From positions 186,001-250,000 of the forward strand of contig JAQTUE010000001.1 in NCBI GenBank assembly GCA_028710415.1: a stretch of DNA of 64,000 nucleotides, read 5' to 3'. The position numbers and the translations under genes are program-made. The notes beneath the pieces are model-generated. The model was given only the letters and a program-made list of their open reading frames with translations. It was not told the origin of the DNA and searched no databases. Shown one piece after another: positions 4,837 to 58,993 of the stretch; the stretch's first letter is position 1, and each line of letters begins with the position of its first letter. This stretch comes from Paludibacter sp. (GTDB lineage Bacteria > Bacteroidota > Bacteroidia > Bacteroidales > Paludibacteraceae).

Positions 4837-4953
4837 GCGGAACACGGAACCCTGAATATTGAATACGGAACGCTTCCTTCAACATCAAACTTATCAAACT
4901 TTCAAACCCCAAACGCGGAACACGGAACACGGAACTCGGAACACGGAACGTTG
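4837..4953 (-). repeat. cggaacac and tcaaactt word tract
   Basis: Plus-strand words cggaacacggaac recur at 4837-4872 and 4914-4950, with tcaaacttatcaaactttc between them. The tract ends four bases from the stop codon at 4958, so it lies immediately 3' of the flippase-like gene. The same two families sit side by side again at 52790-52895. Confidence 0.8.
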
Positions 4954-4957
4954 AATT

Positions 4958-6043
4958 TTAATCTTCAGAACAGGTTGGTGTATCGTGATTGGTTCTGGAG
5001 AAAGATTTTGTAATCCAGTTTGGGATCACAATCAGGCCCAGGACCAGGTAGAGGTAGTAACTGATGATTCTCCAGACCAGGGTGACAAAGATGATGGCGC
5101 TGGTGGAATAGAAAATATCACTGTAATACTCCTTGAAGGCATACTCGCTGATGCCGCTGCCCCCGGGGGTTGGGCTGACTACCATAACCATCCAAAGGAT
5201 CAGCTGGCGGGCAAAAATTACCAGGTGATTGCTAATGGGGACGAATGCCATAAAGATAGCATTCACCACTAAAAAACGGGCTGTCCAGGTGAGCATGGTC
5301 ATCCCAAATGCTTTGATCCAAAACCAGTAAGAACGATTGGCAATATCAATCGAGGCCTGAACCAGGTTGTTGGTGAGCAGATCGACATTGCTGTACCAGC
5401 GTTTCAATACGGGTAGTTTGAAGATGGTTAAAAGAATATGCCTGATCCAGTTTGGCCGTTTGAAAGTACCGATAAACAGAGTGCTGATCCAGAAAAGCCG
5501 TATCACATACAGGGTACTGAAAATTACCCCAAAAGTTGAAACTATGACTGATGACGAATTAAACAGTTGGTTGATGGGAATAAATAAAAACACCAACGGA
5601 CAAAACAGCATAAAGAAGAGTTCATCCAGGAATAAATTGACAAACATGATGGTTGTGCTGCGCCCGGCATTGATCCCTTCCTTAATCAGAAAGATGACTA
5701 CCAGGCTTGATCCTCCAACAGCCGGAGGGGTAACAGCGGTGGTAAATTCGCTCAGGATGTTGATGTGAAAGGCTTGCCGCCAGGATAGATTGTTGTCGGT
5801 GAGCAACCTGAAGCGCCACATCATGCCGAAGTCACGAAGCAACATTAGCAGAAAGGCAAGAAGTATAAACAATAAACTCGTAATGGTGAAGTCGAAAGAG
5901 AAAAAAACATCGGGGTTGAATTCATCGAGGAAAAGCCAGCCAATAACCACTAAACCCAGTAATACAGGAATAAGTACCTGATAGGTTTTAAAAGGCTTTG
6001 CTATTTTTTTTGTTTGAAGTATTGGTTGTATTATTTCCTGCAT
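4958..6043 (-). CDS. Flippase-like membrane protein (LPG_synthase_TM)
   Basis: A 361-residue integral membrane protein with about eight hydrophobic segments. It belongs to the lysylphosphatidylglycerol synthase TM-region family (PF03706, UPF0104): the hallmark SPTPGGSGISEYAF lies near residue 295, and the earlier VTPPAVGGSSLVVIF is the matching first signature. It lacks the soluble synthetase domain of MprF, so it is the flippase-like part only. Its start lies inside the last 13 bases of the upstream glycosyltransferase gene, implying translational coupling. Together the pair suggests synthesis and transbilayer movement of a glycosylated lipid, but no substrate can be named. The 3' end runs directly into a repeat tract. 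Confidence 0.85.
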   Translation of the reverse strand: MQEIIQPILQTKKIAKPFKTYQVLIPVLLGLVVIGWLFLDEFNPDVFFSFDFTITSLLFILLAFLLMLLRDFGMMWRFRLLTDNNLSWRQAFHINILSEFTTAVTPPAVGGSSLVVIFLIKEGINAGRSTTIMFVNLFLDELFFMLFCPLVFLFIPINQLFNSSSVIVSTFGVIFSTLYVIRLFWISTLFIGTFKRPNWIRHILLTIFKLPVLKRWYSNVDLLTNNLVQASIDIANRSYWFWIKAFGMTMLTWTARFLVVNAIFMAFVPISNHLVIFARQLILWMVMVVSPTPGGSGISEYAFKEYYSDIFYSTSAIIFVTLVWRIISYYLYLVLGLIVIPNWITKSFSRTNHDTPTCSED

Positions 6044-7212
6044 TTCCGGTCCATTAATTTTTTATATCTGTCGAGTACTTCATCGGTCACACTTTCCCAG
6101 GACCGGGCAATAGTCCGGGAGGCATTTTCCCCGGCTGTACGTACCCTGATGGGTGAATCGATTAATTCCCGTAATTTGGCCTCAAAGGATTCAGTTGTAT
6201 TTTCTATCAGGAAACCATTGAAGTTGTCAATCACATTTTCGGCAGAAGAAGATCCATTTACCAGGATGGAAGGGGTATGCAGGGCCCCCGCCTCACGGAT
6301 AACCAACGGGGCATTGTCGTAAATGGAAGGAAAAAGGAATAGATCGGCAGCCGCATAATACTGTTTGAGTTTGTCCCGGTCGGTAATCATTCCCACAAAT
6401 TCAACTTTGTCGCTTAAACCAAGCTCATCCACCAGTTGTTTCATGTCGGAAGCTGCATAACCAATTCCCACGAAGAACATTTTAAACTTCAGGTCTTTGA
6501 TCCGGGCAAGCGTCTCAATAATCAGCCTGGTGTTTTTTTCCCAGATATGTTGTCCTACAAACAAAAAGACATGTTCCTGTTCCGAAATATCCAGGGATTT
6601 TCGGGCAGAGGAAATGATGGGCTTAATATTCTGGTTTGTTGCAAAATCATTGCCATTGTCTACAATTTCCACTTTCCCCTTAAAACCGTATTCGCGAATG
6701 GTTTCTTCCACCGAAGCCTGTGGGATCCATACTTCATCAGCTTTTTCGAAGAAACGGATGACATCTTTTGTCATTTGACGGGCAATGAATTTATTGTGTA
6801 CCGAATGCTCAAAATCATCCCTGAACTTGGAATGAAAGGTGGCTACAAAAGGGATTTTTTGTTTGCGGGCAATGCTTAAGGCTAAATTACCTGAACTGAA
6901 CGGACAATGGGCATGCACCAACCCGAAAGAGATCTGGTCAATCTCTGCCCTGAACTGGAAATCTATTTCAGGCAACCCCAACCGGTAAGGTTTTCGTCCT
7001 ATAATGGGTATGGAGGTGTAACGGTAAATGGGATAGGGTTCGTTATCACTGTAGTTTGGCGACTTGGGAGTAATAACACAGACCGGTTGATGTTTCTGGT
7101 GTAACCAATAAGCGTAATTCTGGGTAGTAAGCGACACCCCATCCATTATCGGGGGAAAGCTGTCGTTGAAAATGCCGATAGTTTTCAAATTATCGCCCAC
7201 TAAATTGGCCAT
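6031..7212 (-). CDS. GT4-family glycosyltransferase
   Basis: A 393-residue GT-B glycosyltransferase of CAZy family GT4. The N-terminal acceptor domain starts with TIGIFNDSFPPIMDGVS, the loop typical of mannosyl- and diacylglycerol-glucosyltransferases; HAHCPFSSG and ATFHSKFRDD follow. The C-terminal donor domain has FVGQHIWEKN and FPSIYDNAPLVIREAGA, where the conserved E-x7-E position reads as a single clear Glu. No signal peptide or membrane helix, so it acts at the inner face of the cytoplasmic membrane. Overlap with the downstream flippase-like gene supports a shared glycolipid pathway. Closest well-known relatives are alpha-monoglucosyldiacylglycerol synthases; the sugar and lipid are inferred only by family. 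Confidence 0.88.
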   Translation of the reverse strand: MANLVGDNLKTIGIFNDSFPPIMDGVSLTTQNYAYWLHQKHQPVCVITPKSPNYSDNEPYPIYRYTSIPIIGRKPYRLGLPEIDFQFRAEIDQISFGLVHAHCPFSSGNLALSIARKQKIPFVATFHSKFRDDFEHSVHNKFIARQMTKDVIRFFEKADEVWIPQASVEETIREYGFKGKVEIVDNGNDFATNQNIKPIISSARKSLDISEQEHVFLFVGQHIWEKNTRLIIETLARIKDLKFKMFFVGIGYAASDMKQLVDELGLSDKVEFVGMITDRDKLKQYYAAADLFLFPSIYDNAPLVIREAGALHTPSILVNGSSSAENVIDNFNGFLIENTTESFEAKLRELIDSPIRVRTAGENASRTIARSWESVTDEVLDRYKKLMDRKCRK

Positions 7213-7708
7213 GGATTTTAGTTTTATAAGTGTTAAAAGAAATTGTAATAATAGATTCGCAATTCCCTATAAGTACGATACAAATTTAGGAATTTCTTTT
7301 CATATTCCCATAGTTGCATTTTGGAAATACTTTTATTCAAAATGATAATACGCAGTATAATAGATAAATAGATTTATGTAAAATGTTTTTATTGTAATTT
7401 GAATGTTTATTTTATAATTGACATATATAAAAAAAATTATCTTAAAAGTAATAGAAATGTAACATAAATGAAATAATAAACATTTTCAATTTGAGATATG
7501 TTATTTTATTAATTATTAAAGTTGTATCTTTGCGTTTCAATTTATTTTCTTAATTAACTAACAAAAGTAATCTTAAGTGTCATACAAGTAGTCGGTTACA
7601 ATTATTTTGTAATTGATTATACCTGATAATTAACGCTTTCTATTGTGGTAATATGATAAGATGCAGGTTGTAAAAATTTGTATATAATAATAACATTGAT
7701 CAACACAA
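7213..7708. promoter_or_regulatory. Divergent AT-rich promoter region
   Basis: A 496-bp spacer between divergent genes with no gene of its own. A TATCTTTG -7 box on the plus strand at 7525-7532 could drive the PAP2 gene with a leader of about 170 nt. On the minus strand TAAATTTG at 7281-7288 fits the -7 pattern for the glycosyltransferase gene. Neither has a convincing -33 box. The remainder is very AT-rich with no clear repeat. Confidence 0.5.
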
Positions 7709-8704
7709 ATGGTTCAAAACAGATCGATACGCTTTATAGCAGTTGAAAAACTGACGTTTATCTATATTTTGATAACTTCTCTGATAATTCTCTTTTTGAA
7801 GCCAGAGATTCCGGTAGTAATCGAATTATTAAGAGTGAGGTTGTTAATGATCATTGTGATCATTGCACTGGCGATTATTAATTCTTTTAAGGACTGGTGG
7901 ATAGTTCGTTTCTCGCGTTATGCTTTTATCGGGGCATTGCTGGTATACTGGTACCCGGAGACTTTTGATATCAACCGGATGATCCCGAACTTCGATCATC
8001 TGCTGGCAGGACTGGAACAGAGCATCTTTGGCTTCCAACCGGCATTGGTATTTATACAGAATTACCCACAGCATTGGCTTGGTGAGATATTGAACATGGG
8101 ATATTTGTCGTATTATCCATTTATCATTGTCACCAGCATGTATTTCTATCTCAAGAATAACAAATCATTCGAGCCATTCTTTTTTACAGTGCTTTTCGCA
8201 TTTTTCGGGTATTACCTCATTTACATCCTTTTCCCTACAGCAGGTCCCCAATACTATTACCAGGCGATCGGGCTGGATCAGGTTCAATCGGGTATTTTCC
8301 CTAACATAGGCCTTTATTTCGACAAGCACCAATCGCTGTTTTGTGTAAGCAATAACTCAGGATTCTTTTCGCAACTGGTACAAAGCACCCAGCAGGTTGG
8401 AGAGAGGCCTACTGCTGCCTTCCCGAGTTCGCATGTGGGAATATCGACATTAATAATTCTTTTGATTATAAAGAACCGCCAGTATTTCCTGTTGGCATTC
8501 TTATTCCCGCTCTATGTAGCCCTGGTTACTTCCACGGTTTATATCCAGGCACATTATGTGATTGATGTCATGGCCGGATTTACAACGGCATTTGCATTCT
8601 TCTTTTTAGGGAATCTGGCTTTCAAGGTGTTTACCCGAAGATTCTTTGGTATACCTGAGTTGACGTCAGTATTATCAAAGAAACCCATTAAAATGCAGAA
8701 CTAA
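7709..8704 (+). CDS. PAP2-superfamily membrane phosphatase/transferase
   Basis: A 331-residue protein with six or more membrane helices and PAP2 catalytic motifs: ERPTAAFPSSHVG near residues 231-243 (motif with first His) and TVYIQAHYVIDVMAG near 275-290 (second His and Asp). This pattern, with Tyr-x-x-x-His in place of the usual Arg motif, is that of the PAP2_3 branch, which contains inositol phosphorylceramide synthases of the AUR1 type and their Bacteroidota counterparts. A phosphosphingolipid head-group transferase is therefore possible, and a serine palmitoyltransferase gene occurs later in this window, but a plain lipid phosphatase is equally compatible. The gene is divergent from the glycolipid pair and has no close downstream partner. 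Confidence 0.8.
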   Translation: MVQNRSIRFIAVEKLTFIYILITSLIILFLKPEIPVVIELLRVRLLMIIVIIALAIINSFKDWWIVRFSRYAFIGALLVYWYPETFDINRMIPNFDHLLAGLEQSIFGFQPALVFIQNYPQHWLGEILNMGYLSYYPFIIVTSMYFYLKNNKSFEPFFFTVLFAFFGYYLIYILFPTAGPQYYYQAIGLDQVQSGIFPNIGLYFDKHQSLFCVSNNSGFFSQLVQSTQQVGERPTAAFPSSHVGISTLIILLIIKNRQYFLLAFLFPLYVALVTSTVYIQAHYVIDVMAGFTTAFAFFFLGNLAFKVFTRRFFGIPELTSVLSKKPIKMQN

Positions 8705-8907
8705 TTACTGCTTGCTCTTGAAAGATACAAATTCAGTATAGACAGAGTTCCCTCCCAGGATAAATTTAAATGAAATCATCTGCAATAACCGTGTATCCAT
8801 GATACACGGCTTTATCTGTCCACGGTATAAAAATCTGACTGCCAAAAGCTTTCCAATAACTTTGATGATTTGACGAAAGATAATTATGGGCGATTTAGAT
8901 AATTTCT

Positions 8908-10530: not shown

Positions 10531-10563
10531 AACTTTTCCAAAGTTCCAAACTTTGGAAAAGTT
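10531..10563. repeat. Perfect hairpin between menF and menD
   Basis: Two 14-nt arms (aacttttccaaagt and actttggaaaagtt) with a five-base loop, starting three bases after the menF stop codon. There is no T-run, so it is a poor terminator and more likely a processing site, mRNA-stabilising hairpin or dispersed palindromic repeat. Confidence 0.75.
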
Positions 10564-10581: not shown

Positions 10582-12258
10582 ATGAATCATTTCCGTCAGG
10601 GAATTAAGAACCTACCCGAAATATGCTTCCAGCAAGGAGTACGCAAAGTAATCATTGCCCCGGGCTCGCGGAATGCACCTTTAATTCTGGCTTTTACTTC
10701 CCATACCGGACTTGAATGTTTAAGCATTACCGACGAGCGTTCGGCTGGCTACTTTGCTGTTGGCATTGCCCAACACAGCAATGAACCGGTGGCATTGATC
10801 TGTACTTCCGGAACTGCGGTACTTAATTTTGCACCTGCCATTTCAGAAGCCTATTATCAAAATCTGCCCTTGTTGGTTTTCACTGCCGACCGTCCTGCTG
10901 AACTGATTGACCAGGCTGATGGACAGACGCTTCGTCAGGAAAATGTGTATGGCAATTATATAAAAGCAAATTTTGTATTGCCTGTTGAGACAGTGCTGGC
11001 TGTTGATTTGCAATTCTCTGATCGTCAGGTCTCACAGGCCATTGATACAGCAGTATCCTATCCGCAAGGGCCGGTACAAATCAATGTGCCTATGCGGGAA
11101 CCGATTTATACTCCTTTACCCGAAACACATTCTTTTCCAAAGATATTTAAAACTCTGGAGAGTGTAATTACCCCAACCAAGGAAAGCCTGAAAAAGTTGC
11201 AGAATTTATGGACTTCTTCCCCAAAGAAAATGGTGGTCTTTGGAGTCTCTTCCAAAAATGAACAGCTTAACGCATTGGCAAACCTGTTGGCTAATGAGCC
11301 TGATGTGGTTGTCATAGCTGAGAATCTGTCGAATATAAGTGGCGAAAAGATTATAACCCGCCCTGAATCATTTTTCTCTTCCCTTACCCCTGAAAGCAAA
11401 GCTTCATTCAAACCCGATTTGCTCATTACGATCGGGCATTCCGTGATTTGCAAACAGCTGAAGTTATTTTTAAGGGAATATCAGGCTGCCGCTCAATGGC
11501 AACTTGAATCTTCGTTGCCATACATTGATACCTACAAATGCCTCAATGTGATTATTCCAGGATCAGCAGGTGATATCCTGATGAAGATGCCTTTTGGTAA
11601 AACAAAAAGCAATTATTCAGACACATTTCAAACTCAAAATCAGATTATAGCAAGACGCCATGATGCTTTTATAGAAAATGCTCCCTTGTCGGATATGAGT
11701 GCTGTCATAAATTTGCTTCATCTGGTGCCTGCAAATACACAACTTCATTTGGCCAACAGTACTTCAGTCCGTTGGACGCAGTTATTCCCGACACGAAGCG
11801 ATTTATCCTACTATTGCAACCGGGGTACTTCGGGCATTGACGGGAGCTTGTCCACGGCAGCAGGATTTGCTTATTCGTCGAAACAACCAACTCTCTTCCT
11901 CACCGGCGATTTATCGTTTATCTATGATTCCAACGGATTGTGGAATAATTATATTGGAACTAATTTTAAAATCGTTGTGCTGAATAACAATGGCGGTAAT
12001 ATCTTCCGGTTTATAGGCGATCCTCAATTAATGAAATCGTGCGAACAGTTCTTTACCACCCCCCATCATGTGAAGATTAAATCCCTGGTGGAAGCTTACG
12101 GGTTGAAATACATTGCATGTAAACAAGACTCTGAACAGGTAGATGCACTGAAAGAATTGTTTGCATCCGATCAGGCTACCGTGCTTGAGATATTTACGGA
12201 TGCTGATTTAAATACAGAGAATTACAAGGGGTATTTTAGGAATATAAAGAAAGCCTAA
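10582..12258 (+). CDS. menD: SEPHCHC synthase
   Basis: A 558-residue thiamine-diphosphate enzyme that joins isochorismate and 2-oxoglutarate to give SEPHCHC. The N-terminal domain has IIAPGSRNAPLILAF, ITDERSAGYFAVGIA with the activating Glu, and LICTSGTAVLNFAPAISEAYY; the C-terminal TDP domain shows GTSGIDGSLSTAAGFAY and TGDLSFIYDSNGL followed by an Asn-rich VVLNNNGGNIF, the metal/TDP site. Length matches the family. It follows menF by 54 bp across a hairpin; its stop is followed immediately by a palindromic repeat and then menB. Confidence 0.96.
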   Translation: MNHFRQGIKNLPEICFQQGVRKVIIAPGSRNAPLILAFTSHTGLECLSITDERSAGYFAVGIAQHSNEPVALICTSGTAVLNFAPAISEAYYQNLPLLVFTADRPAELIDQADGQTLRQENVYGNYIKANFVLPVETVLAVDLQFSDRQVSQAIDTAVSYPQGPVQINVPMREPIYTPLPETHSFPKIFKTLESVITPTKESLKKLQNLWTSSPKKMVVFGVSSKNEQLNALANLLANEPDVVVIAENLSNISGEKIITRPESFFSSLTPESKASFKPDLLITIGHSVICKQLKLFLREYQAAAQWQLESSLPYIDTYKCLNVIIPGSAGDILMKMPFGKTKSNYSDTFQTQNQIIARRHDAFIENAPLSDMSAVINLLHLVPANTQLHLANSTSVRWTQLFPTRSDLSYYCNRGTSGIDGSLSTAAGFAYSSKQPTLFLTGDLSFIYDSNGLWNNYIGTNFKIVVLNNNGGNIFRFIGDPQLMKSCEQFFTTPHHVKIKSLVEAYGLKYIACKQDSEQVDALKELFASDQATVLEIFTDADLNTENYKGYFRNIKKA

Positions 12259-12353
12259 GAACCCCTAACCCCTAAAGGGGAATAAGAAATTGTTTGTTAA
12301 AAACAAATTTAAAATACTAACTGCTCTTTTTCCCCTTTAGGGGTTAGGGGTTC
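12259..12353. repeat. cccctaaagggg palindrome element, copy 1
   Basis: Perfect 23-bp inverted repeat (12259-12281 and 12331-12353) around a 49-bp AT-rich core. Each arm itself contains a palindrome, cccctaaagggg, next to aacccctaacccc. The left arm begins right after the menD stop. A related, larger copy lies at 58799-58993. Confidence 0.85.
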
Positions 12354-12366: not shown

Positions 12367-13182
12367 ATGAGAAACTGGACAACTATTAAAGAATTTGAAG
12401 AAATAAAGTTTGAGTATTTCGAAGGAATAGGCAAGATTACCATCAACCGTCCGCGGTACCGCAATGCGTTTACACCCGATACCATTAAAGAAATTATTGA
12501 GTGCATGGTGTTTTGCCGGGATAGCCAGGATATCGCCACAGTGATCCTGACCGGTGAAGGCGATAAGGCATTTTGCAGTGGAGGTGACATCAATGTAAAG
12601 CAAATTGGCGGATATATCGGGAAAGATGGCATCCCACGCCTGAATGTGCTTGACCTGCAAAAACTGATACGCAGCCTGCCAAAGCCTGTTGTGGCTATGG
12701 TAAATGGTTTTGCGATTGGTGGCGGTCACGTCTTGCATGTGGTGTGTGACTTGTCCATTGCTTCCGAGAATGCAATCTTTGGACAGACAGGTCCTAAAGT
12801 AGGAAGCTTTGATGCAGGCTTTGGATCTTCATACCTGGCCCGTGTGGTAGGACAGAAGAAAGCCCGTGAGATCTGGTTCCTGTGCAAGCAATACTCTGCT
12901 GCCGAAGCTTATGACATGGGACTGGTCAACAAGGTAGTACCTTTCGACCAGCTGGAAGACGAAACAGTGGACTGGTGCAAGCAAATGATGCAACACAGTC
13001 CGTTGGCATTGCGCATGATCAAGGCAGGCCTGAATGCAGAACTTGATGGACAGGCAGGTATCCAGGAATTAGCCGGGAATGCCACTATGCTCTATTACAT
13101 GACCGAAGAAGCGCATGAAGGGAAGAATGCTTTCCTGGAAAAAAGGAAGCCTGATTTCTCGAAATTCCCTAAAATGCCGTAA
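12367..13182 (+). CDS. menB: 1,4-dihydroxy-2-naphthoyl-CoA synthase
   Basis: A 271-residue crotonase-fold enzyme that closes the second ring of the naphthoquinone from o-succinylbenzoyl-CoA. Diagnostic MenB segments are [38 protein letters not shown] (oxyanion hole) and [17 protein letters not shown] with the catalytic Asp/Ser region, then [21 protein letters not shown]. Length is normal. It sits between menD and menA, separated from menD by the palindromic element and from menA by 160 bp of short repeats. Confidence 0.96.
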
Positions 13183-13187
13183 GTGGT

Positions 13188-13333
13188 GATTGGTTGATTA
13201 AGTTAATTGGTTGATTGGTTAATTAAGTTCATCACTTAAACGGGACGTCTCATTGTTCCGTTGGTTATTTGATAAATGAGTGACACAATCTTTATTCTTT
13301 TGTCTTGATTCTTGAATCTTGATTCTTTGCTCT
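13188..13333 (+). repeat. Short-word repeats between menB and menA
   Basis: Seven bases after the menB stop, ggttgatt/aagttaat words repeat (13190-13222), the reverse complement of the cttaatcaaccaatt family in front of folB. A second group, cttgattcttgaatcttg, fills 13304-13329 in the leader of menA and resembles, in reverse, the caagaatcaag words after queC. Confidence 0.65.
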
Positions 13334-16604: not shown

Positions 16605-17678
16605 ATGGAAAGTATACTACTCAACGGCATTCGTTATGACTCTGAGAACCTGGATAAAATCTTTTGTTCCGGTGAATTCCCGGATTCATTCCGGGAGGCG
16701 ATATATGAATTCCTTCAGAACTGGTACGATGATACCGACTTTATTCTGGCAAATACTTCCGGTTCCACGGGTACGCCCAAGAGTATCCATTTGTCAAAGC
16801 AAAGCATGGTCAATTCAGCACGGATGACTAATCGCTACTTTGGACTGACTCCGGAGAGTGTCGGGCTGCTTTGTCTGCCGGCTACCTATATTGCGGGCAA
16901 AATGATGCTGGTGCGGGCTATGGAGGGTAAGTTTAACTTGCTGGCGGTAGAACCTTCGGCTAACCCGTTTAAAACGCTTCATACAGCCATCGACTTTGCT
17001 GCCATTACTCCCTATCAGCTGTTTCATTCTGCCGAAAGTCTGCAACAGTTTCCAGTACGGAAGATTATAGTGGGAGGGGGGCCTGTCACTACTAAACTTG
17101 AAAAACTTGCTGAGAACATCCCTGCTGAATTGTATGAGACCTATGGAATGACCGAGACCTGCTCGCACATTGCACTGCGTCGTTTCAATGGTGAGGAGAA
17201 ATCGGATTATTTTACCATCCTCGATGGGGTCGCTATCCGGCTGGATGAACGTGGATGCCTGGCTATCCGTGCCCCGCATTTGCTTCCCGATGAAATACAA
17301 ACAAACGATATTGTGGAACTCAAAGGGGATACTTCGTTCCGGTGGCTGGGCCGTGCCGATTCAACCATTAATTCCGGCGGCATCAAGATTCATCCCGAGC
17401 TGGTTGAACGAAAGCTCGAAGGTATCATTCCAACTCCCTTTTTTATCGCCTCCCTTTCCGACGAAGTACTAGAGAACAAGGTGGTACTGGTCATAGAATC
17501 GGAAGCATACTCCACAGAACAGGAAGAAGACTTAAAAGCCCGTTTGGAGAATGTCCTCTCAAAATATGAAATGCCAAAACAATTGTTTTATGTTCCAAAT
17601 TTTAGCTATTCAGAAAGCAATAAAGTCCTGCGCAAAGAGTCATTAGAAAAGGCTATCAATCAGATTTTCACAGATTAA
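16605..17678 (+). CDS. menE: o-Succinylbenzoate-CoA ligase
   Basis: A 357-residue AMP-forming acyl-CoA ligase (ANL family), short as MenE proteins of this phylum are. ATP-binding P-loop NTSGSTGTPKSIHLSK lies near residue 50, then KIIVGGGPVT, YETYGMTETCSH (A5 motif) and WLGRADSTINSGGIKIHPE (hinge); the C-terminal catalytic Lys is in NKVLRKES. It activates o-succinylbenzoate for MenB. It begins three bases after menC. The last codons (IFTD and stop) are encoded by the first copies of the cacagatt repeat that continues downstream. Confidence 0.94.
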   Translation: MESILLNGIRYDSENLDKIFCSGEFPDSFREAIYEFLQNWYDDTDFILANTSGSTGTPKSIHLSKQSMVNSARMTNRYFGLTPESVGLLCLPATYIAGKMMLVRAMEGKFNLLAVEPSANPFKTLHTAIDFAAITPYQLFHSAESLQQFPVRKIIVGGGPVTTKLEKLAENIPAELYETYGMTETCSHIALRRFNGEEKSDYFTILDGVAIRLDERGCLAIRAPHLLPDEIQTNDIVELKGDTSFRWLGRADSTINSGGIKIHPELVERKLEGIIPTPFFIASLSDEVLENKVVLVIESEAYSTEQEEDLKARLENVLSKYEMPKQLFYVPNFSYSESNKVLRKESLEKAINQIFTD

Positions 17679-18104
17679 AATACAGATTACCACAGATTAA
17701 AGAACAGATTTACACAGATTTAAGAACAGATTTCCACAGATTAAATATCAGCGTAATCAGCGTAATCAGTGATTAATATTTTTCTCTATGCTGGTATATA
17801 CTGTGTAAATCCTTTTCTTCTACTTAAAAGCCTAAATAATAATTGTCCACAGATTACACAGATTACCACAGATTAATTATCAGTGTAAATCAGTGTAATC
17901 TGTGGACAATAGTTTTAATTTTTCGATATAATCTGCGGACAATTATATTATTTATCTACTCTGATCCGAGGAAACCCCAATCTTCCAACCCCCGAAATCT
18001 GTGTAAATCCTTTCCTTTTATCTGTGTAAATCTGGTATTTGATCTGTGTAAATCAATTATATTATCTGTGTAAATCTGTATTTTTATCTGTGAAAATCTG
18101 TTAT
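17661..18104. repeat. Mirror-symmetric cacagatt repeat array
   Basis: About 440 bp of degenerate words (cacagatt, cagatttacacag, attaccacagatt, cagcgtaatcag). The left part is in one orientation from the end of menE; the right part, from about 17985, is in the opposite orientation up to the stop of the convergent gene at 18107. At the turning point is a perfect 18-bp inverted repeat (17842-17859, attgtccacagattacac; 17893-17910). No gene: an open frame at 17843-18073 is only repeat translation. Confidence 0.85.
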
Positions 18105-19106: not shown

Positions 19107-19240
19107 CCAATACTCTATGCTCAACGCTCAACGCTTGATGCTCAACTTTCCCAATACTCTATGCTCAAAGCTCAACGCTTGATGCTCAACTTTCCCAATA
19201 CTCTATGCTTAATTCTCAACGCTTGATGCTCAACGCTCAT
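19107..19240 (-). repeat. Three 44-bp tandem repeats into the photolyase 3' end
   Basis: Three copies of a 44-bp unit begin ccaatactctatgctcaa at 19107, 19151 and 19195; inside each unit the shorter word gctcaacgctt is itself repeated. The last copy runs through the stop codon (19230-19232) and the final Asn-Glu-Arg codons of the leftward photolyase gene. Confidence 0.85.
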
Positions 19241-34110: not shown

Positions 34111-34202
34111 AGCCTTTGGCGATATTACTTAATGTGATATTATTTCATTGATATTACTTACAGTGATATTATTACAGCGATATTACTTACAGGGATATTA
34201 AA
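34111..34202 (-). repeat. gatatta tandem repeats in the aguB leader
   Basis: Six imperfect units of about 14-16 bp on the plus strand (gatattacttaatgt, gatattatttcatt, gatattacttacagt, gatattattacagc, gatattacttacagg, gatatta), ending some 25 nt before the aguB start codon. Confidence 0.8.
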
Positions 34203-34216: not shown

Positions 34217-34273
34217 GGTGATTTTCCTTACTACCTACTACTTACTACCTACTCATTTCTCATTCCTCACTCC
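34217..34273 (-). repeat. gaatgag/gtaggta words after aguA
   Basis: On the minus strand, directly after the aguA stop, come ggagtgaggaatgagaaatg and then agtaggtagtaagtagtagg. The junction aatgagtaggtagta is found again at 52681-52695. Confidence 0.8.
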
Positions 34274-35299
34274 TCATTCCTTTCCTTTCGGATATTGCAT
34301 TGTCACACAGTGCAACGACCCATGCTGCTTAATCAACGCCATGCAATTTATACCCACAATGTCACGATCAGGGAAAGCCTTTTGCAATTGTTGCATGGCA
34401 ATCTCATCCTTTGGGGAATTATAGGTTGGTACCAGAACTGCCCCGTTAATGATCAAAAAGTTTGCATAGGTAGCAGGAAGCCGTTCATCGTCAAAGTATA
34501 CTTCATCAGCCATTGGAAGTGCAATAAGCCTGAAATATCTATCATCAGAAGTCTTAAACTTACGAAGTTCCTTCTTCATTTTCTTTAATTCTTCGAAATG
34601 TTCATCTTCACTATCATCACATTTTACGTAGGCAATGGTACTAATATCACAAAGCCGTGCCAGTGTGTCCACATGGCTGTCGGTGTCATCGCCGGCCAGA
34701 TACCCGTGATTCAGCCAAAGTACCTGTTTGAGCCCGAAATACTCTTTTAGCTTCTTCTCGATGTCCTCTTCAGATAGATTGTTGCGGTTATCGGACAGTA
34801 AGCATTCAGCAGTAGTCAGTACTGTCCCTTCACCATCCGATTCAATACTGCCACCTTCCAATACAAAGTCAAAGCAGTTTTTGTGACCGCAATCACCAAA
34901 GATTCCTGCAGAATAAAGTTTCCGTGTAATCAGATTATCATAATTGGCGGCAAACTTCATTCCCCAGCCATTGAAAGTAAAATCATAAACTACCGGTTTG
35001 CCATCTTCCAATACGGTAATCCCGCCATGATCGCGTGCCCAGGTATCATTGGTTGGCATTTCTGCAAAAGTAATCCTGGATAAATCAGCATCACCCAGGA
35101 GCTGTTCCACTTCGTCGGTATCGGTACAAACAATCAGTAAGTCCTCATATTTAATTATTTCGCGGGCAATGTTGACAAAACATTCGTTTACTTCATCGAG
35201 CATATCCGCCCAATCAGTATCTTTATGGGGCCATGTAAGTTGAATGAATTGTTGCTCTGCCCATTCAGCAGGTAATACAATCTGATGATTTGATTCCAT
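34274..35299 (-). CDS. aguA: Agmatine deiminase
   Basis: A 341-residue guanidino-modifying enzyme of the PPAD/agmatine deiminase family, converting agmatine to N-carbamoylputrescine and ammonia. Motifs: LPAEWAEQQFIQLTWPH at the N-terminus, MPTNDTWARDHGG, FVLEGGSIESDGEGT, LAGDDTDSHVDTLAR, and the catalytic Cys331 in HGSLHCVTMQYP. Length slightly below the 350-370 of other members. Its neighbour aguB completes putrescine formation; carboxyspermidine genes lie further right on the other strand. No arginine decarboxylase gene is in the window. Confidence 0.95.
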   Translation of the reverse strand: MESNHQIVLPAEWAEQQFIQLTWPHKDTDWADMLDEVNECFVNIAREIIKYEDLLIVCTDTDEVEQLLGDADLSRITFAEMPTNDTWARDHGGITVLEDGKPVVYDFTFNGWGMKFAANYDNLITRKLYSAGIFGDCGHKNCFDFVLEGGSIESDGEGTVLTTAECLLSDNRNNLSEEDIEKKLKEYFGLKQVLWLNHGYLAGDDTDSHVDTLARLCDISTIAYVKCDDSEDEHFEELKKMKKELRKFKTSDDRYFRLIALPMADEVYFDDERLPATYANFLIINGAVLVPTYNSPKDEIAMQQLQKAFPDRDIVGINCMALIKQHGSLHCVTMQYPKGKE

Positions 35300-35485: not shown

Positions 35486-36151
35486 ATGAAAGATATAGTA
35501 ATACTTTATTCAGGTGGAATGGATAGTTCGGTGGCCATTTATAAATATGCCGAACGTATCAGCCTGGCCGTGACCTTTAATTACGGATCGAAACATAATC
35601 TGCGTGAGATAGAATATGCCAACAGGAATTGTACGGCACTGGGCATTGAGCATCATGTTATCGATATCGATTTAAATAAAATGGGCTTTGTATCCAATTT
35701 ACTTCAATCAGGGGGAGATATACCGGACGGACATTACGAAGACCAGAATATGATTAAAACAGTGGTGCCTTTCCGGAACGGGATCATGTTGAGCATTGCT
35801 GCCGGCATTGCCGAAAGCATCGGATGCGACAAACTGATGATATCCAATCATGCCGGCGATCATGCCATTTATCCGGATTGCCGTGAGGAATTCATTGAAA
35901 CCATGAGCAAAGCGATCAGCCTGGGAACTTATAACCATTGTCAAATCCTGGCTCCATTTACCAATTTATCCAAACGAGAAATAGCATTGATCGGAAAAGA
36001 AATTGGCGTGCCGTTCGAAGATACTTATTCTTGTTATAACGGCCATGAGATCCATTGCGGTACGTGCGGTACCTGTACGGAACGCAAAGAAGGGCTGGCA
36101 GGGTTTGATCCGACGGTGTATGAGAGCCAAGAACCAAGAGCCAAGACGTAA
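35486..36151 (+). CDS. queC: 7-cyano-7-deazaguanine synthase
   Basis: A 221-residue ATP-pyrophosphatase-type enzyme making preQ0 from carboxydeazaguanine, for queuosine in tRNA. P-loop YSGGMDSSVA is at residues 8-17; FNYGSKHNLRE and VPFRNGIMLSIAAG follow, and the C-terminal zinc site reads CYNGHEIHCGTCGTCTERK (four Cys). The frame is open to a TTG at 35453, but the -7 box lies inside that extension, so the ATG at 35486 is the start. The normal family end is near FDPTVY; the last residues ESQEPRAKT are translated from the gagccaagaaccaag repeat that continues downstream. No other que genes are adjacent. Confidence 0.94.
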   Translation: MKDIVILYSGGMDSSVAIYKYAERISLAVTFNYGSKHNLREIEYANRNCTALGIEHHVIDIDLNKMGFVSNLLQSGGDIPDGHYEDQNMIKTVVPFRNGIMLSIAAGIAESIGCDKLMISNHAGDHAIYPDCREEFIETMSKAISLGTYNHCQILAPFTNLSKREIALIGKEIGVPFEDTYSCYNGHEIHCGTCGTCTERKEGLAGFDPTVYESQEPRAKT

Positions 36152-36188
36152 GAGGCAAGAGGTAAGAGGCAAGAATCAAGAACCAGGA
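36120..36188 (+). repeat. gagccaag/aagaggcaag tract over the queC end
   Basis: Words gagccaag, aaccaag, agaggcaag, aatcaag and aaccagg repeat from within the last queC codons to about 36188. The same words occur at 52663-52680 and 52731-52760. Confidence 0.8.
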
Positions 36189-41563: not shown

Positions 41564-42706
41564 ATGTCTTTTTCAACTTTAGGTTTATCTCCCGCTTTAT
41601 TAAAAAAAGTAGCTGAACAAAATTATACACAGCCTTATCCCATTCAACTTGAAGCTATACCAGCCATCCTAAAAAGAAGGGATATATTGGGAATTGCAAG
41701 GACAGGCTCCGGGAAAACCGTTAGTTATGTACTGCCAATTTTAATGAATCTGGTTGGGAATACCGTTACTAAGAACAGGCATGTGAATGTACTGGTGTTG
41801 GTGCCAACCCGTGAACTTGCCATTCAGGTAAGTGAAGTGTTCCTGCTGTTTAGTTCAGGACTCCCTGAACGGATAAAAACAATGGCGGTCTACGGGGGTG
41901 TATCCATTAACCCTCAAATGATGGCGTTGCAGGGTGTCAATATCCTGGTGGCAACTCCCGGCAGATTGCTGGAGTTGGTGGAATCCAAGGCGGTGCATTT
42001 GTCTGAGATTGAAACATTGGTATTGGACGAAGCCGATAAGATGCTGAACCTTGGTTTCAGGGAGGAAATGAGTCTTATTTTTAAGCTGCTGCCTAAGAAA
42101 AGACAAAACTTATTGTTTTCAGCCACTTTAAATGAAGATGTAACCAGGATTAATCAACTGTTGCTTCAGAATCCATTGGTTATTAAAACCGAAGAGGAAG
42201 AAGATTACTTTGAGAAGATTCAACAACTTGGATACTTTGTATCAGAAGAAAAGAAAGGCCCGTTGCTACGTTATTTGCTTAAAACCAATGACATGAAACA
42301 GGTATTGATTTTTGCTTCTTCAGTGTATAAAGCCGATAATGTAGCCGATAAACTTCGCAAGAATGGAATCAATGCTTCCGCCATCCACAGTAAAAAGAGC
42401 CAGGGTGCCCGCAATGAAGCATTATGGAAGTTTAAATCCGGAGAATTGCGTGTGCTGGTAGCAACCGACCTCATATCCCGCGGGATTGATATCCAGTTCC
42501 TGCCATTCGTGATCAACTACGAACTACCCCGCTCTCCAAAAGATTATATACACCGAATAGGTCGTACAGGGCGTGCAGAGTCTTCCGGTGAAGCAATATC
42601 CTTTGTTTCCCCGGAGGAACAACACCATTTTAAGATCATTCAAAAGAAAATGGGCAAGCCTGTTACTATGATTGACAGCGACAACCTGAATCTTCAAGGG
42701 TATTGA
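41564..42706 (+). CDS. DEAD-box RNA helicase (RhlE-like)
   Basis: A 380-residue helicase core with all superfamily 2 motifs: Q motif YTQPYPIQLEAIP, motif I ARTGSGKT, Ia PTRELAIQV, Ib TPGRLLEL, II VLDEADKM, III SATL, V ATDLISRGIDIQ and VI HRIGRTGRAES. There is little C-terminal extension, as in short RhlE-type enzymes, so targeting domains (DbpA-like) are absent. It would remodel rRNA or mRNA structure, often in the cold. Its stop is followed at once by the word ataattcata, which recurs in mirror orientation after the convergent gene. Confidence 0.93.
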   Translation: MSFSTLGLSPALLKKVAEQNYTQPYPIQLEAIPAILKRRDILGIARTGSGKTVSYVLPILMNLVGNTVTKNRHVNVLVLVPTRELAIQVSEVFLLFSSGLPERIKTMAVYGGVSINPQMMALQGVNILVATPGRLLELVESKAVHLSEIETLVLDEADKMLNLGFREEMSLIFKLLPKKRQNLLFSATLNEDVTRINQLLLQNPLVIKTEEEEDYFEKIQQLGYFVSEEKKGPLLRYLLKTNDMKQVLIFASSVYKADNVADKLRKNGINASAIHSKKSQGARNEALWKFKSGELRVLVATDLISRGIDIQFLPFVINYELPRSPKDYIHRIGRTGRAESSGEAISFVSPEEQHHFKIIQKKMGKPVTMIDSDNLNLQGY

Positions 42707-42862
42707 ATAATTCATAATTATTACTTAAGCATCAGGCAGTATTCTGGATAGCTATGATGTATCAGAGGAGATCCCTTAACCAACAAAAGCCTCTCAGACG
42801 GAAGGATTTTGTTGTTATGAGAATCTTAAATTATGCATTATGTATTATGCATTGTGAATTAT
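42704..42862. repeat. Mirror-image attcata/atgcat words between convergent genes
   Basis: Plus strand after the helicase stop: ataattcataattatta. Minus strand from the stop codon of the opposite gene: taattcacaatgcataata and catdaatgcataat-like copies (cataatgcataattt). Both start at the stop codon and run in the direction of the gene they follow. The 100 bp between them are not repetitive. Confidence 0.65.
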
Positions 42863-50469: not shown

Positions 50470-50565
50470 GATATCTTAACCTTTTAATGATATGAGATAT
50501 CTAAGTTATATCTAAGATACATCTAAGATACATCTAAGATACAACTAAAACATCATGAAGATATC
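50470..50565 (+). repeat. Dispersed atctaag repeat, copy B
   Basis: Reads ttaatgatatgagatatcta, four atctaag units at 11-bp spacing, then atacaactaaaacatcatga. Same block order as copy A (21565-21660, opposite strand) with one additional 11-bp unit. Confidence 0.8.
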
Positions 50566-52662: not shown

Positions 52663-52896
52663 AGAGGCAAGAGGCAAGGAATGAGTAGGTAGTAGGTAGT
52701 AGGTAGTAGGTAGTAGGTAGTAGGTAGCATGAACCAAGAAGCAAGAACCAAGAGCCAAGTACAAAGAATAAAGAACAAGGAACTAAACAGAACACGGAAC
52801 GCAAAACGCTGAACGCAAAACACGGAACACGGAACGCAGAACACGGAACACAAAACACGGAACGCAAAACCTTTCAAACATCAAACTTTTCAAACT
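52663..52896 (+). repeat. Mosaic of five short-word repeat families
   Basis: In order: agaggcaagaggcaag (52663-52678), seven copies of gtaggta-type units (52684-52728), gaaccaagaagcaagaacca and more aag words (52731-52785), cggaacac/cgcaaaac words (52790-52870) and ctttcaaacatcaaactttt (52871-52896). It fills nearly the whole spacer between the subtilase stop and the xseA start. Each family occurs elsewhere in the window (36120, 34217, 4837, 56798). Confidence 0.85.
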
Positions 52897-54136: not shown

Positions 54137-54276
54137 TATTTATTTACAATTTACAACTTACAAATTACAATTTCTTATTCTCCTATAACCAATTACCTTA
54201 TTCAACTTAATCAACCAATTACCTTAATCAACTTAATCAACTTAATCAACTTAATCAACCAATCCACTAACCAAAA
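54137..54276 (+). promoter_or_regulatory. G-free 140-nt leader of folB
   Basis: Not one G occurs on the sense strand from 54137 to the A of the folB start codon. It is built from two word sets: ttacaatttacaacttac (to about 54172) and cttaatcaa/ccaattacc copies (54187-54260). It can form almost no RNA structure. No ORF and no promoter box. Confidence 0.8.
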
Positions 54277-54633: not shown

Positions 54634-54650
54634 GCACAAAGTAAACTCAT

Positions 54651-54991: not shown

Positions 54992-54999
54992 CAAAGATA
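54992..54999 (-). promoter_or_regulatory. -7 box of the small membrane protein gene
   Basis: Minus-strand TATCTTTG, about 75 nt upstream of the ATG at 54917. Confidence 0.5.
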
Positions 55000-55126
55000 A
55001 CTGGAATATTTTAATGAGACACATTTACCCTTGACTTTTAATTTCAAAGTGTCACATAAGAACTTGTTAAATTGCATATCGGTATAGGTTGAAAAATGAA
55101 TAATCCGCAGGATACTTTTAGATAAG

Positions 55127-55158
55127 AAAGGCAGATACAAGTGAATGTATCTGCCTTT
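55127..55158 (-). terminator. Terminator hairpin after the ABC-F gene
   Basis: Perfect 13-bp stem (aaaggcagataca / tgtatctgccttt), 6-nt loop, 23 nt beyond the stop codon at 55181. The T-run on the minus strand is short, so efficiency is uncertain. Confidence 0.65.
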
Positions 55159-55180
55159 GAATCAGTATGCCAGAGTGAGA

Positions 55181-56958
<1,778 letters not shown>

Positions 56959-56991
56959 GTTTTTTTCAAGAGTAGTTCTTGTTGAATTCTA

Positions 56992-58179
56992 TTATTGAAT
57001 GATTCCCAGTTTGCGGGCTTCTCTTGAGATCTTCTCGATGGATTCATCAATTTGATCGAAAGTGTGTGTTGCCATCAGGGAATAACGGATTAATGAGTCT
57101 TCTGAACGAACAGCCGGAGAAACAACCGGATTTACAAATACACCATCATCCATTAACATACGGGTGAGTTTAAAGGTGTTGGTATTGTCGCGTACATACA
57201 ATGGAATAATTGGAGTTTCAGTAGGCCCGATTTCAAAGCCTGCTTTCAGAAAACCTTCCTTGGCACGGTTTGTATTCGCCCACAAAGCATCTTTACGCCA
57301 TGTTTCTTCTTCCATAACATCCAGGGCAGCCAATACACAGGCAGTTGAAGCCGGTGTGATAGAAGCACTGAAAATTAATGTGCGGGAATTATGTTTTAAA
57401 TAATTGATAATGCTGTTATCGGAAGCAATGAATCCACCAATGGTTCCCAATGATTTACTAAAGGTACCCATGATCAGGTCCACATCTTTTGAAACACCGA
57501 AGTGTTCGCAGATACCGGCTCCTGTCTTGCCAAACACACCTAATGAATGGGCTTCGTCAACGTATATGGATGCATTGTATTTCTTTGAAAGTTCTACTAT
57601 TTCAGGTAAACGGGCTACGTCACCTTCCATGCTGAAAACTCCATCTGTGACAATCAGTTTAAGTTTGTCAGGTTCACATTTCTTGAGTATTTTTTCAAGG
57701 GCATCCATATCGTTGTGACGATATTTCAGTTGCTTTGAAAATGAAAGCCTTTTACCTTCTACTATTGAAGCATGGTCAAATTCGTCGAAGATAAGATAAT
57801 CTTCACGGCCTGTAACACATGGAACAACTCCTGAATTCACTGTAAAACCTGTAGCATAAACTAAAGCACCCTCCTTATGAACCAGTTTAGCCAATCTATC
57901 TTCCAATTCCAAATGAATATCCAATGTACCATTCAAAAAACGAGATCCTGCACAACCTGTACCGTATTTTTCTATTGCTTTTATGGAAGCTTCTTTTAAC
58001 CTGGGGTGATTTGTTAGTCCCAAATAACTATTTGAACCAAACATTAATACTCGTTTACCATCAATTGTTACAACTGTATCCTGGTCAGATTCGATGGGAC
58101 GAAAATAAGGATATACACCCATTGCTTTTGCCTGTTGGGGCGCATCATATTGTCCCAACACATTACTAAGTTGACTCAT
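56992..58179 (-). CDS. spt: Serine palmitoyltransferase (alpha-oxoamine synthase)
   Basis: A 395-residue PLP enzyme condensing an acyl-CoA with an amino acid; the variant common in Bacteroidota is serine palmitoyltransferase, first step of sphingolipid synthesis. PLP features: Asp208 and His211 in YVDEAHSLG, and Lys242 in GTFSKSLGTIGGF; FGSNSYLGLTNHP, GTGCAGSRFLNGT and DEFDHASIVEG are shared by the family. The related KBL and AONS enzymes have the same motifs, but the N-terminus MGVYPYFRPIESDQ matches bacterial SPT. It is a single gene divergent from the cysteine-cluster gene, with its own terminator. Confidence 0.88.
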   Translation of the reverse strand: MSQLSNVLGQYDAPQQAKAMGVYPYFRPIESDQDTVVTIDGKRVLMFGSNSYLGLTNHPRLKEASIKAIEKYGTGCAGSRFLNGTLDIHLELEDRLAKLVHKEGALVYATGFTVNSGVVPCVTGREDYLIFDEFDHASIVEGKRLSFSKQLKYRHNDMDALEKILKKCEPDKLKLIVTDGVFSMEGDVARLPEIVELSKKYNASIYVDEAHSLGVFGKTGAGICEHFGVSKDVDLIMGTFSKSLGTIGGFIASDNSIINYLKHNSRTLIFSASITPASTACVLAALDVMEEETWRKDALWANTNRAKEGFLKAGFEIGPTETPIIPLYVRDNTNTFKLTRMLMDDGVFVNPVVSPAVRSEDSLIRYSLMATHTFDQIDESIEKISREARKLGIIQ

Positions 58180-58212
58180 AAATTATTATGTGTGTGTAAT
58201 TAAAAACGGCTA

Positions 58213-58220
58213 CAAAGATA
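58213..58220 (-). promoter_or_regulatory. -7 box of spt
   Basis: Minus-strand TATCTTTG about 34 nt upstream of the spt start codon. Confidence 0.6.
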
Positions 58221-58248
58221 CTAATTTTTTCTAGAAAAAAGTATATTT

Positions 58249-58280
58249 TTTGATTCCTATGCTAAATTTGAATACTTTTG
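58249..58280 (+). promoter_or_regulatory. Promoter of the cysteine-cluster gene
   Basis: TTTG at 58249-58252, 20-bp spacer, TACTTTTG at 58273-58280: full consensus, 28 nt upstream of the GTG start at 58309. Confidence 0.75.
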
Positions 58281-58308
58281 TACCTCAAAATATAACACTA
58301 AGTTTCAC

Positions 58309-58806
58309 GTGAACAAACAACTAGATTATAAATTATTGCCCGTTTTAGCTGCTAAATCGGAAGTGGAATGGAAGCGATATTTCCAAAAGAACAAGAAGAA
58401 ACTTGAGGCTATGGACCTGAAGGTTCATGCACTACACGAAGCAATCTCTAAAAAAACCGATTGCCTGCAATGTGCCAATTGTTGCCGTTCATTAGGTCCC
58501 CGAATTACCGATAAAGATGTGGAGCGTATCTCAAAAATGCTAAGGATGAAATCGTCGGATCTGATTGCTAAATACTTCAGGATTGATGAAGACGGGGATA
58601 TGGTATTTCAATCCATGCCTTGTCCATTTCTGGGATCGGATAATTACTGTTCAATTTATGAATCCCGACCAAAAGCCTGTCGTGAATATCCTCATACAGA
58701 CAGGAAGCGCTTTTATCAGATTTATAATCTATCGATAAAAAACGCTTATACCTGTCCGATCGTATATGAAGTGCTGGAAGAAATTACTAAAATGAAGAAC
58801 CCCTAA
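58309..58806 (+). CDS. YkgJ-family cysteine cluster protein
   Basis: A 165-residue protein of the CxxCxxCC family (YkgJ/UPF0153), thought to bind zinc or an iron-sulfur cluster. Cysteines: TDCLQCANCCRSLGPRI near residues 45-60, then CPFLGSDNYCSIYESRPKAC and CPIVYE. The start is GTG; no ATG lies between the promoter and the conserved part except one too far inside. The last codons and the stop (Lys-Asn-Pro, TAA) are formed by the first bases of the cccctaaagggg element that follows. Cellular role unknown. Confidence 0.85.
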   Translation: MNKQLDYKLLPVLAAKSEVEWKRYFQKNKKKLEAMDLKVHALHEAISKKTDCLQCANCCRSLGPRITDKDVERISKMLRMKSSDLIAKYFRIDEDGDMVFQSMPCPFLGSDNYCSIYESRPKACREYPHTDRKRFYQIYNLSIKNAYTCPIVYEVLEEITKMKNP

Positions 58807-58993
58807 CCCCTGAAGGGGGATAAGAGATGTTAGTATTAATTGTTTAATTTTATTTTATAATACAACTCCTTGCCCCTAAAGGGGAGCAAGAAAGTTAGTA
58901 TTGTTTAAAAACATATCAGATCCGAAAGTAACCAAATCCACCTTTAGGGGTTAGGGATCAGTTTCTTATCCCCCTTTAGGGGTCAGGGGTTCT
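58799..58993. repeat. cccctaaagggg palindrome element, copy 2
   Basis: A 195-bp element between convergent genes. The outer arms (aacccctaacccctgaaggg and the matching end near 58966-58992) are inverted; two more internal copies (cccctaaagggg near 58875, cctttaggggttaggg near 58942) make it a multi-palindrome. It provides the stop codon of the left gene and abuts the stop of aroA. Related to 12259-12353, sharing aataagaaa/ttagtattaa-type core words. Confidence 0.85.

Follow-up and report, generated by a model that had tools for sequence, protein, structure and literature searches.

The DNA stretch analysed here, referred to as the window, comprises 64,000 nucleotides (nt) of Paludibacter sp. 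and corresponds to positions 186001-250000 of contig JAQTUE010000001.1 (C77) in a 6.28-Mb genome; site coordinates below are window positions. The menB gene of the window shares 96% identity with that of a Paludibacter sp. metagenome-assembled genome (MAG) and 94% with those of two Bacteroidales MAGs, which marks the host as a Paludibacter-like member of Bacteroidales. Many of the spacers between its genes carry arrays of short tandem words, and a preliminary description, made from the letters alone, had listed about fifteen gene ends with such arrays. By using Tandem Repeats Finder (TRF) and by reading, clear tandem words were confirmed at ten of the fifteen, namely 4958(-), 13182, 17678, 18107(-), 19230(-), 34274(-), 36151, 42859(-), 52662 and 54136. 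The end at 42706 has two units only, and the other four carry dispersed palindromes: a AACCCCTAAAGGGG-type sequence, not tandem words, lies at 12258, 58806 and 58993(-), the first of which also has 2.3 tandem copies of AACCCCT, and the 10527 end has the ACTTTTCCAAAGT hairpin, with a palindrome AACTTTTCCAAAG...CTTTGGAAAAGTT at 10531-10563. No Rfam family and no tRNA were found in the window. The layout of the arrays is real and strongly ordered, as described below, and the features are listed in Table 1.

The tests were performed on 864 kb (some 14% of the whole sequence of the host), made up of the window and a further 800 kb, in which we called 582 genes ourselves with a hexamer model. A tract was defined as a tandem repeat with a period of 5-15 nt and at least 2.5 copies; TRF was used in the window. 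W denotes a word directed from the adjacent gene towards the interior of the spacer (inward), and rcW its reverse complement. Other genomes compared are designated G008, G005, G003 and G044/G021, and loci from relatives L045, L046 and so on.

The results showed that tracts cover 0.17% of the coding sequence (1174 of 682379 bases), 7.5% of the codirectional spacers (9115 of 122210), 14% of the convergent spacers (2094 of 14948) and 1882 of the 37713 bases of divergent spacers. Many of the divergent-spacer tracts are 11-mers distant from both genes, a separate class. The commonest periods are 7, 9, 11 and 8, with period 7 at the top. In the first two 20-nt bins, tract coverage was 12.9% and 15.2% after stops, and 3.9% and 6.0% before starts. 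The supposed enrichment at stop codons thus held in the sampled part of the genome, with coverage far above that of coding sequence. Of the 93 arrays nearest to a stop edge, counted in spacers of 120 nt or more, 64 begin no more than 10 nt from the stop codon or run across it. Flush starts were seen for 65 of 178 arrays, against a mean of 10.1 and a maximum of 20 in 2000 random re-placements within the same spacers, a null that favours the finding, since these spacers now consist mostly of array and whatever enters a 10-nt spacer abuts the genes on both sides. We concluded that arrays often abut the stop codon, which in some cases is itself part of the array.

Several arrays had been said to extend the reading frame. 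By reading, this is so for QueC, whose Pfam match extends to residue 216 of the 232 and whose array begins at 36123, and for a MenE-like AMP-binding protein, whose last residues QIFTD lie within the array (TRF start 17661); for the photolyase it is the stop, at 19230, that lies inside the array (19107-19234). For the 71 arrays that lie within 10 nt of a stop or cross it, the stop bases match the sequence one period downstream in 51% (31% at control lags) and the two codons before the stop in 35-40% (27-29% at control lags). Stop usage (TAA/TGA/TAG) was 34/19/17 in array genes and 355/87/70 elsewhere (TAA versus other, Fisher p = 0.001). It seems that the array supplies part of the stops, for example in queC and in the MenE-like gene.

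The tracts had also been described as oriented by the gene they follow. This stands for the stop side but is incomplete, because the same words also run inward from start edges, antisense to the following gene; in the window, examples lie at 13287-13328, 52790-52870 and 54187-54259. Since the families were both picked and oriented by the stop-edge counts of this genome, the stop polarity counts are partly circular, while the start edges and the order test given below are independent of them. Within 100 nt of an edge, 85 arrays point inward and 5 outward at stop edges (85:5), and the ratio is 28:4 at start edges; the stop-edge arrays of convergent spacers are 26:0 inward. The strand bias expected near stops was strong within 60 nt for the larger families: unit clusters obtained de novo gave 14:1 and 11:0 for the GTTGATT types, 11:0 and 6:1 for GTTTGAA, 5:0 for GTTCCGT, 14:0 for GTAGTAG and 6:0 for TGAGAAA, and small clusters were less clear (AAAAGTC 2:1, TCAAACTT 1:1). 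At the same distance, unit pairs gave 19:0 for GTTCCGT and 21:0 for AAGAGGC, and TTTACNA gave 5:0. The AACCCCTAAAGGGG palindromes are likewise inward within 60 nt, 8:0 at stops and 7:0 before starts in this genome and 4:0 and 4:0 in the G044/G021 set, and the palindrome is also present in the L045 spacer after 8257. At stop and start edges alike, the word families are therefore directed from the gene towards the spacer interior, and the inward direction at start edges means that the rule belongs to the spacer and not to the upstream gene.

The same rule was seen in the order of segments. Where segments of opposite orientation share a spacer, W precedes rcW in 99 cases and follows it in 8; for segments of the same family the ratio is 25:0. 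Among the 66 spacers with both orientations in our genome, G008 and G044/G021, 62 read W...rcW, none reads rcW...W and 4 are interleaved (43/0/3, 13/0/1 and 6/0/0, respectively). In spacers with one orientation, the arrays lie in the inward half or the outward half in 48/15, 19/3 and 19/4 cases in the three sets.

A GC-skew score of the tracts, which needs no family definition, gave 90:11 within 60 nt of stops and 26:11 within 60 nt of starts in our genome, 28:9 and 23:5 at stops and starts in G008, 16:4 and 18:0 at 80 other Bacteroidales loci, and 20:1 at the starts of G044/G021. The tracts of G005 itself lean inward by this score (13:4 within 60 nt of stops; 8:5 within 60 nt of starts and 11:1 at 60-150 nt). 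The 80 loci hold few words of our genome (TTTACNA 0:2 at starts; AACCCCTAAAGGGG 1:1 at starts and 0:1 at stops). In distant genomes, 14 AGTAGNT loci were read: of the six that have a called stop within 100 nt, five are sense and one is antisense (L193, 91 nt); of the three that are equally close to a called start, two are inward and one is outward (L197); and five further loci lie more than 100 nt from a called edge or have it uncalled, the L192 array following an uncalled open reading frame (ORF) by eye. A first cross-validated k-mer test on all tracts was weak (codirectional 83/150, p = 0.11; convergent 29/41, p = 0.006; divergent 20/39), and within 30 nt of stops it gave 41/62 and 17/21. 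We think that the weak result came from pooling start-side and stop-side arms together with 11-mers; the family and spacer-edge analysis superseded this test.

A base-composition rule, by which the G-rich strand leaves the gene, fits the arrays in bulk. It was rejected as the cause, because C-containing and G-free families show equal polarity near stops. The skew of non-array spacer DNA in our genome is -0.02 to 0.06 at stops and 0.19 in the first 20 nt at starts. The polarity is thus independent of base composition. Stop-codon content of the words was also rejected as a cause, since GTTCCGT and AAGAGGC, which contain no stop codon, are equally polar.

The words had been said to be re-used at distant loci, and this was upheld: GAACNCN in three copies has 77 + 65 matches in its own genome, compared with 10 + 1 for the reversed control. 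The words form a small shared pool. Across genomes (counts include our own), GAACNCN in three copies occurs in 9 of 40 relatives, with nine matches in G003. Pairs of GTTRATT occur in 12 of 48 genomes of the genus (523 in our genome, 195 in G008 and at most 6 in each other), pairs of GTTTGA in 27 of 48 (315 in our genome, reversed control 81), and AGTAGNT in three copies in 12 of 247 genomes sampled from the phylum; G005 has 77 tracts in 400 kb. The distribution of words is patchy among species of one genus. Other lineages (L069, L085, L089, L096, L098, G005) have other gene-edge words, including GAGCTAC, GACAAGG, GAAGTTAAAG, AATGAAG and CACGGATTACG.

We then compared orthologous spacers. The convergent spacer 17678/18107 measures 428 nt in our genome; judged by tblastn ends it has 10 nt in L045 and 2 nt in G008, and judged by called genes 4 and -4 nt. 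The spacer 12258/12367 (also labelled 10582/12367) measures 108 nt in our genome, 7 nt in L045, 219 nt in G008, and 93 nt with a different palindrome in L046. At 13182/13344, our genome and G008 have GTTGATT arrays, and L045 and L046 have TTTACGAT words, seen by eye and below the tract threshold. The C77:38407 spacer has GTTTGAA in our genome versus GTTTATA in G008, with the W...rcW layout kept, and its array pair occupies the 110-nt spacer right up to the start codon. The short orthologous spacers measure 7, 10, 24, 39 and 65 nt (L045), 43 and 47 nt (L046) and 2 and 37 nt (G008), and the longer ones 76 and 103 nt (L045), 93 and 232 nt (L046) and 102, 116 and 219 nt (G008). Among 11 spacers common to our genome and L045-L058, five have tracts in our genome only and six in neither. 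In relatives, therefore, the orthologous spacers are empty or hold other words in the same geometry.

Table 1. Arrays and palindromes in the window
Feature	Position	Strand	Context
GTTCCGT then GTTTGAA array	4884..4949	-	sense, 8 nt past stop of gene 4958-6043(-); TRF and sequence
palindrome GAACCCCTAACCCCTAAAGGGG ... CCCCTTTAGGGGTTAGGGGTTC	12259..12353	.	occupies most of spacer 12258/12367
GTTGATT array	13180..13229	+	0-4 nt past stop 13182
AAGAATC array	13287..13328	-	inward from start of gene 13344
ACAGATTAC / ATCAGCGTA array	17661..17769	+	contains stop of AMP-binding (MenE-like) gene
ACAGATTAC / ATCAGCGTA words, second block	17847..17898	+	mid convergent spacer; TRF
mirror array	17997..18104	-	past stop 18107(-)
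GTTGAGC / GCATCAA array, 44-nt higher-order unit x2.9	19107..19237	-	spans photolyase stop
AATGAGG then AGTAGGT array	34227..34281	-	spans stop of PAD_porph gene 34274(-)
AAGAGCC array	36123..36185	+	starts within queC, spans its stop 36151
two units ATAATTCATAAT	42707..42720	+	flush with stop 42706
mirror ATAATGC array	42829..42862	-	at stop 42859(-)
mosaic AAGAGGC - AATGAG - AGTAGGT - AAGAACC array	52663..52783	+	past stop 52662
GTTCCGT array (GAACACG on +)	52790..52870	-	inward from start of gene 52907
TTTACAA array	54142..54173	+	past stop 54136
GTTGATT array (CTTAATCAA on +)	54187..54259	-	inward from start of gene 54277
GTTTGAA array	56803..56875	+	leader of gene 55181(-), inward from start called at 56797; the longest ORF of this gene reads through the array
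palindromic CCCCTAAAGGGG-type copies	58800..58992	.	bracket convergent spacer 58806/58993

Besides the 7-9-nt words there are 11-nt words (GGGTTGAGATA, GAGGGGGTATC, GGGGGTTGCCT and others), which are arranged as inverted arrays around a short loop, in most cases in long spacers and more than 150 nt from genes. Such inverted arrays lie at window 4477-4590 and in the C7:82491, C77:85706 and C3:36054 spacers of our genome; they tend to have the G-rich arm first, and the copy at 4477-4590 shares an identical 60-nt stretch with C77:100016. They are possibly dispersed hairpin elements. The TCTAAGATAC 11-mer array (window 50499-50548; C26:38304 and C3:58120 spacers) has a conserved non-repetitive flank, 60-70 nt of which are identical at three loci, and array and flank together are a dispersed element. 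The palindrome at 10531-10563 recurs with 32-36 identical nt on G008 contigs C237, C232 and C2, although identity in matched DNA between our genome and G008 is about 68-80%. A tandem 15/29-nt GATATTACTTACAGT array at 34121-34200, between 34087 and 34274, adjoins a heptamer array.

The explanation that we favour, tentatively and with somewhat less than even confidence, is that composite short-word arrays came to fill spacers, some of them formerly of a few nt, either by copying from the pool with polarity followed by slippage or as two-ended units. Either 3'-end synthesis or two-ended insertion would agree with the mirror rule, with the lack of dependence on composition and with a pool of words common to many loci. 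In the former case, new sequence would be laid on DNA 3' ends leaving the gene, for instance at a spacer break or at stalled synthesis. Arrays elsewhere would provide the template, reached through a few matching bases, and stop codons may act as natural priming points (TAG for AGTAGGT, TGA for AATGAGG or GTTTGAA, TAA for AAGAGGC). Slippage would afterwards lengthen the array, which would persist because it lies outside coding sequence, any role in the mRNA being secondary or absent. In the latter case, a two-ended mobile unit W...rcW would be inserted whole, again with later slippage and with tolerance outside coding sequence. Equal polarity would be expected, and the data do not separate the two. 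The near restriction of AGTAGGT, AATGAGG and AAGAGGC to the stop edges of our genome (18, 27 and 32 unit pairs at stops; 0, 0 and 3 at starts) fits 3'-end synthesis better, an argument qualified by the AGTAG type at starts in G005 and distant genomes, and the two-sided AACCCCTAAAGGGG element fits two-ended insertion. The preliminary description had proposed a templated or slippage process acting at 3' gene ends; word sharing and turnover do favour copying plus slippage, but the proposal is too narrow, as start edges and AACCCCTAAAGGGG palindromes also show the inward direction. A stronger version, in which a dedicated or habitual DNA synthesis of Bacteroidota extends gene-leaving 3' ends with pool words, partly primed at stops, and so builds spacers, is unlikely.

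Several observations weigh against filling of spacers by copying or insertion. No copying event or enzyme was observed in this analysis. Among 7-9-mer arrays the longest exact matches (at most 62 nt) are runs of one unit, possibly grown independently. Words of our genome show no polarity in G005 (7 inward, 8 outward), where the AGTAGGT type is 3:0 at starts and 2:2 at stops. TTTACNA is 3:3 at start-edge arrays of our own genome, and polarity is weaker at 60-150 nt from stops (GTTCCGT 10:5, GTTGATT 41:13). By GC-skew the stops of G044/G021 are only 12:9, with two real outward cases. In this set GTTTGAA is 7:5 at stops, and the five outward arrays, all in codirectional spacers (length 104-199 nt), are separated from the stop by 32-89 nt (12 spacers read); L202, L206 and L215 are arms running to near the start, and L205 and L213 are real exceptions. 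Moreover, our genome and G008 share 83 reciprocal best hits (median amino-acid identity 76.6%) and 44 orthologous spacers, of which 8 have tracts in both, 3 in our genome only, 5 in G008 only and 28 in neither (p = 0.0008); the G008 contigs were partly picked for word hits, and two of the eight shared spacers (C3:89675, window 7212) rest on 11-mer and AT-rich tracts. Such partly conserved presence is not predicted by pure tolerance. Finally, the scarcity of terminators beside arrays, given next, could mean function.

The main rival is selection on untranslated RNA: transcribed arrays would influence the 3' ends of mRNAs or insulate genes from their neighbours, with W maintained by selection on the stop side and rcW on the start side. 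We scanned for intrinsic terminators (hairpin plus T-run within 300 nt of stops). They were found at 10/63 codirectional stops with an array and 74/292 without in our genome (convergent 7/19 and 45/79), and at 3/28 and 20/86 in G008 (convergent 2/5 and 13/19). Terminators are thus rarer beside arrays in all four strata, none of which is significant alone (pooled Mantel-Haenszel odds ratio 0.48, p = 0.007). Where a stop has both, the terminator lies downstream of the array in 20 of 22 cases, between stop and terminator being the place of the array; when transcribed, the arrays are therefore part of the 3' untranslated region and not themselves intrinsic terminators. A 3'-untranslated-region function, also raised in the preliminary description, gains from this scarcity, from the geometry conserved in orthologs while words change, and from the sense orientation of AGTAGNT in five of the six loci near called stops in distant Bacteroidota. 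It loses from the arms, which are not co-adapted: in 43 two-armed spacers of our genome and G008 the mean duplex energy was -24.9 in cis and -22.3 after swapping (permutation p = 0.157), some arms being of the same family and pairing well, others hardly pairing. Many unrelated words would each need a polarity-specific function of their own, arrays are missing from most stop edges, and the words are distributed patchily among species of the genus. We regard this function as a real possibility, though on balance an unlikely one. Selection for a hairpin as such was rejected on the same pairing result, and because a hairpin would be equally possible as rcW...W, an order seen in none of the 66 two-orientation spacers.

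Local slippage with purifying selection is quite unlikely to suffice. By this account arrays would grow anywhere in spacers, coding copies would be purged, and orientation would be filtered by translation, through stop codons in W and through the lack of start codons or structure in rcW near starts. Coding regions are indeed nearly tract-free, GTTGATT, GTTTGAA, AGTAGGT and AATGAGG hold TGA, TAG or TAA in sense by reading, and stop codons are in phase with arrays. Against it, identical words recur at many loci, words free of stop codons are equally polar, and convergent spacers, which have no start edge, are still entirely inward.

A REP/BIME-like origin (repetitive extragenic palindromes and bacterial interspersed mosaic elements), with palindromes moved by an IS200/IS605-type transposase (REP-associated tyrosine transposase, RAYT), appears improbable. 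In its favour, the palindromes AACCCCTAAAGGGG and ACTTTTCCAAAGT are dispersed over gene edges, and W...rcW has a palindromic form, but many arrays are single-armed and tandem 7-9-mers are unlike REP hairpins. A Y1 transposase was rejected as the mover, as neither the array-bearing G005 nor G003 has a Y1_Tnp match. Improbable too are intrinsic or Rho-type terminators built of repeats, in spite of the position after stops and the depletion of terminators beside arrays, since a hairpin with T-run was found at only 17 of 82 array stop edges of our genome, after the array in 16 of the 17, and since the array pair at C77:38407 reaches the start codon.

If copying with polarity or insertion is true, it would be a route by which bacteria acquire spacers, C-terminal residues and stop codons that they lacked before. 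Under the stronger version, with its dedicated or habitual 3'-end extension, the W...rcW mirror rule, valid for many unrelated words, would be the footprint of that extension.

Among known systems, intrinsic terminators differ by their stable hairpin and T-run, and CRISPR (clustered regularly interspaced short palindromic repeats) has identical 25-40-nt repeats with unique spacers, whereas most units here are 7-11 nt long and follow one another head to tail. Like our arrays, the REP/BIME palindromes that go with RAYT transposases are dispersed, extragenic and near gene ends, but they have no tandem words; Y1_Tnp matches number 10 in G000 and 6 in G008. The STRR (short tandemly repeated repetitive) heptanucleotide repeats of cyanobacteria are, like ours, short tandem heptamers dispersed in intergenic DNA. 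Among the titles and abstract openings that were searched, no account of this layout in Bacteroidota was found beyond two heptamer papers.

One of these describes TAACTGA direct repeats in Beggiatoaceae, cyanobacteria and some Bacteroidetes, patchy across phyla, and further heptamer arrays in some Bacteroidetes spacers (MacGregor 2015, PMC4679880). In the Beggiatoaceae genome they lie mostly a few nt upstream of start codons, and a role in translation was proposed. Intergenic heptamer arrays and patchy distribution are common to both systems. However, TAACTGA is one word, no TAACTGA unit occurs among our 45 largest clusters, and our tracts favour stops over starts.

The closest precedent, with the same geometry, is the G-rich heptamers GGGAATC / GGGGA(C/T)T of Xanthomonas and Nostoc (Rehm et al. 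2015, PMC4692102), a paper whose introduction mentions Calothrix heptanucleotides. These heptamers are mostly intergenic. On the coding strand they lie up to 50 bp after stops, some overlapping the stop codon, and on the non-coding strand up to 50 bp ahead of starts. Their G-runs are able to form G-quadruplexes, and four units per array are preferred. They are scarce between divergent genes and occur mostly at the same gene pairs in sister species with varying length and sequence; the discussion states that their role remains to be elucidated. Our arrays resemble them in the enrichment of tandem heptamers in non-coding DNA and in using the coding strand near stops, often flush, and the non-coding strand near starts. 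They differ in that the main words (GTTGATT, GTTTGAA, GTTCCGT, AGTAGGT, AATGAGG, AAGAGGC) have no GGG run, although some 11-mers do, that many families of 7, 8, 9 (and 11) nt occur in one genome with mosaics within one spacer, that C-containing and G-free words are also polar, and that whole words are replaced at some orthologous sites. Should 3'-end extension be true, it may also lie behind the Xanthomonas and Nostoc heptamers and be a general way, so far unrecognised, in which bacteria obtain intergenic DNA. What is new here is that many families occur at once, that they form mosaics, that the mirror order is strong and that one word can take the place of another at an orthologous site; the composition-independent mirror rule together with word replacement turns the matter into a testable choice between a process with polarity and selection on untranslated RNA.

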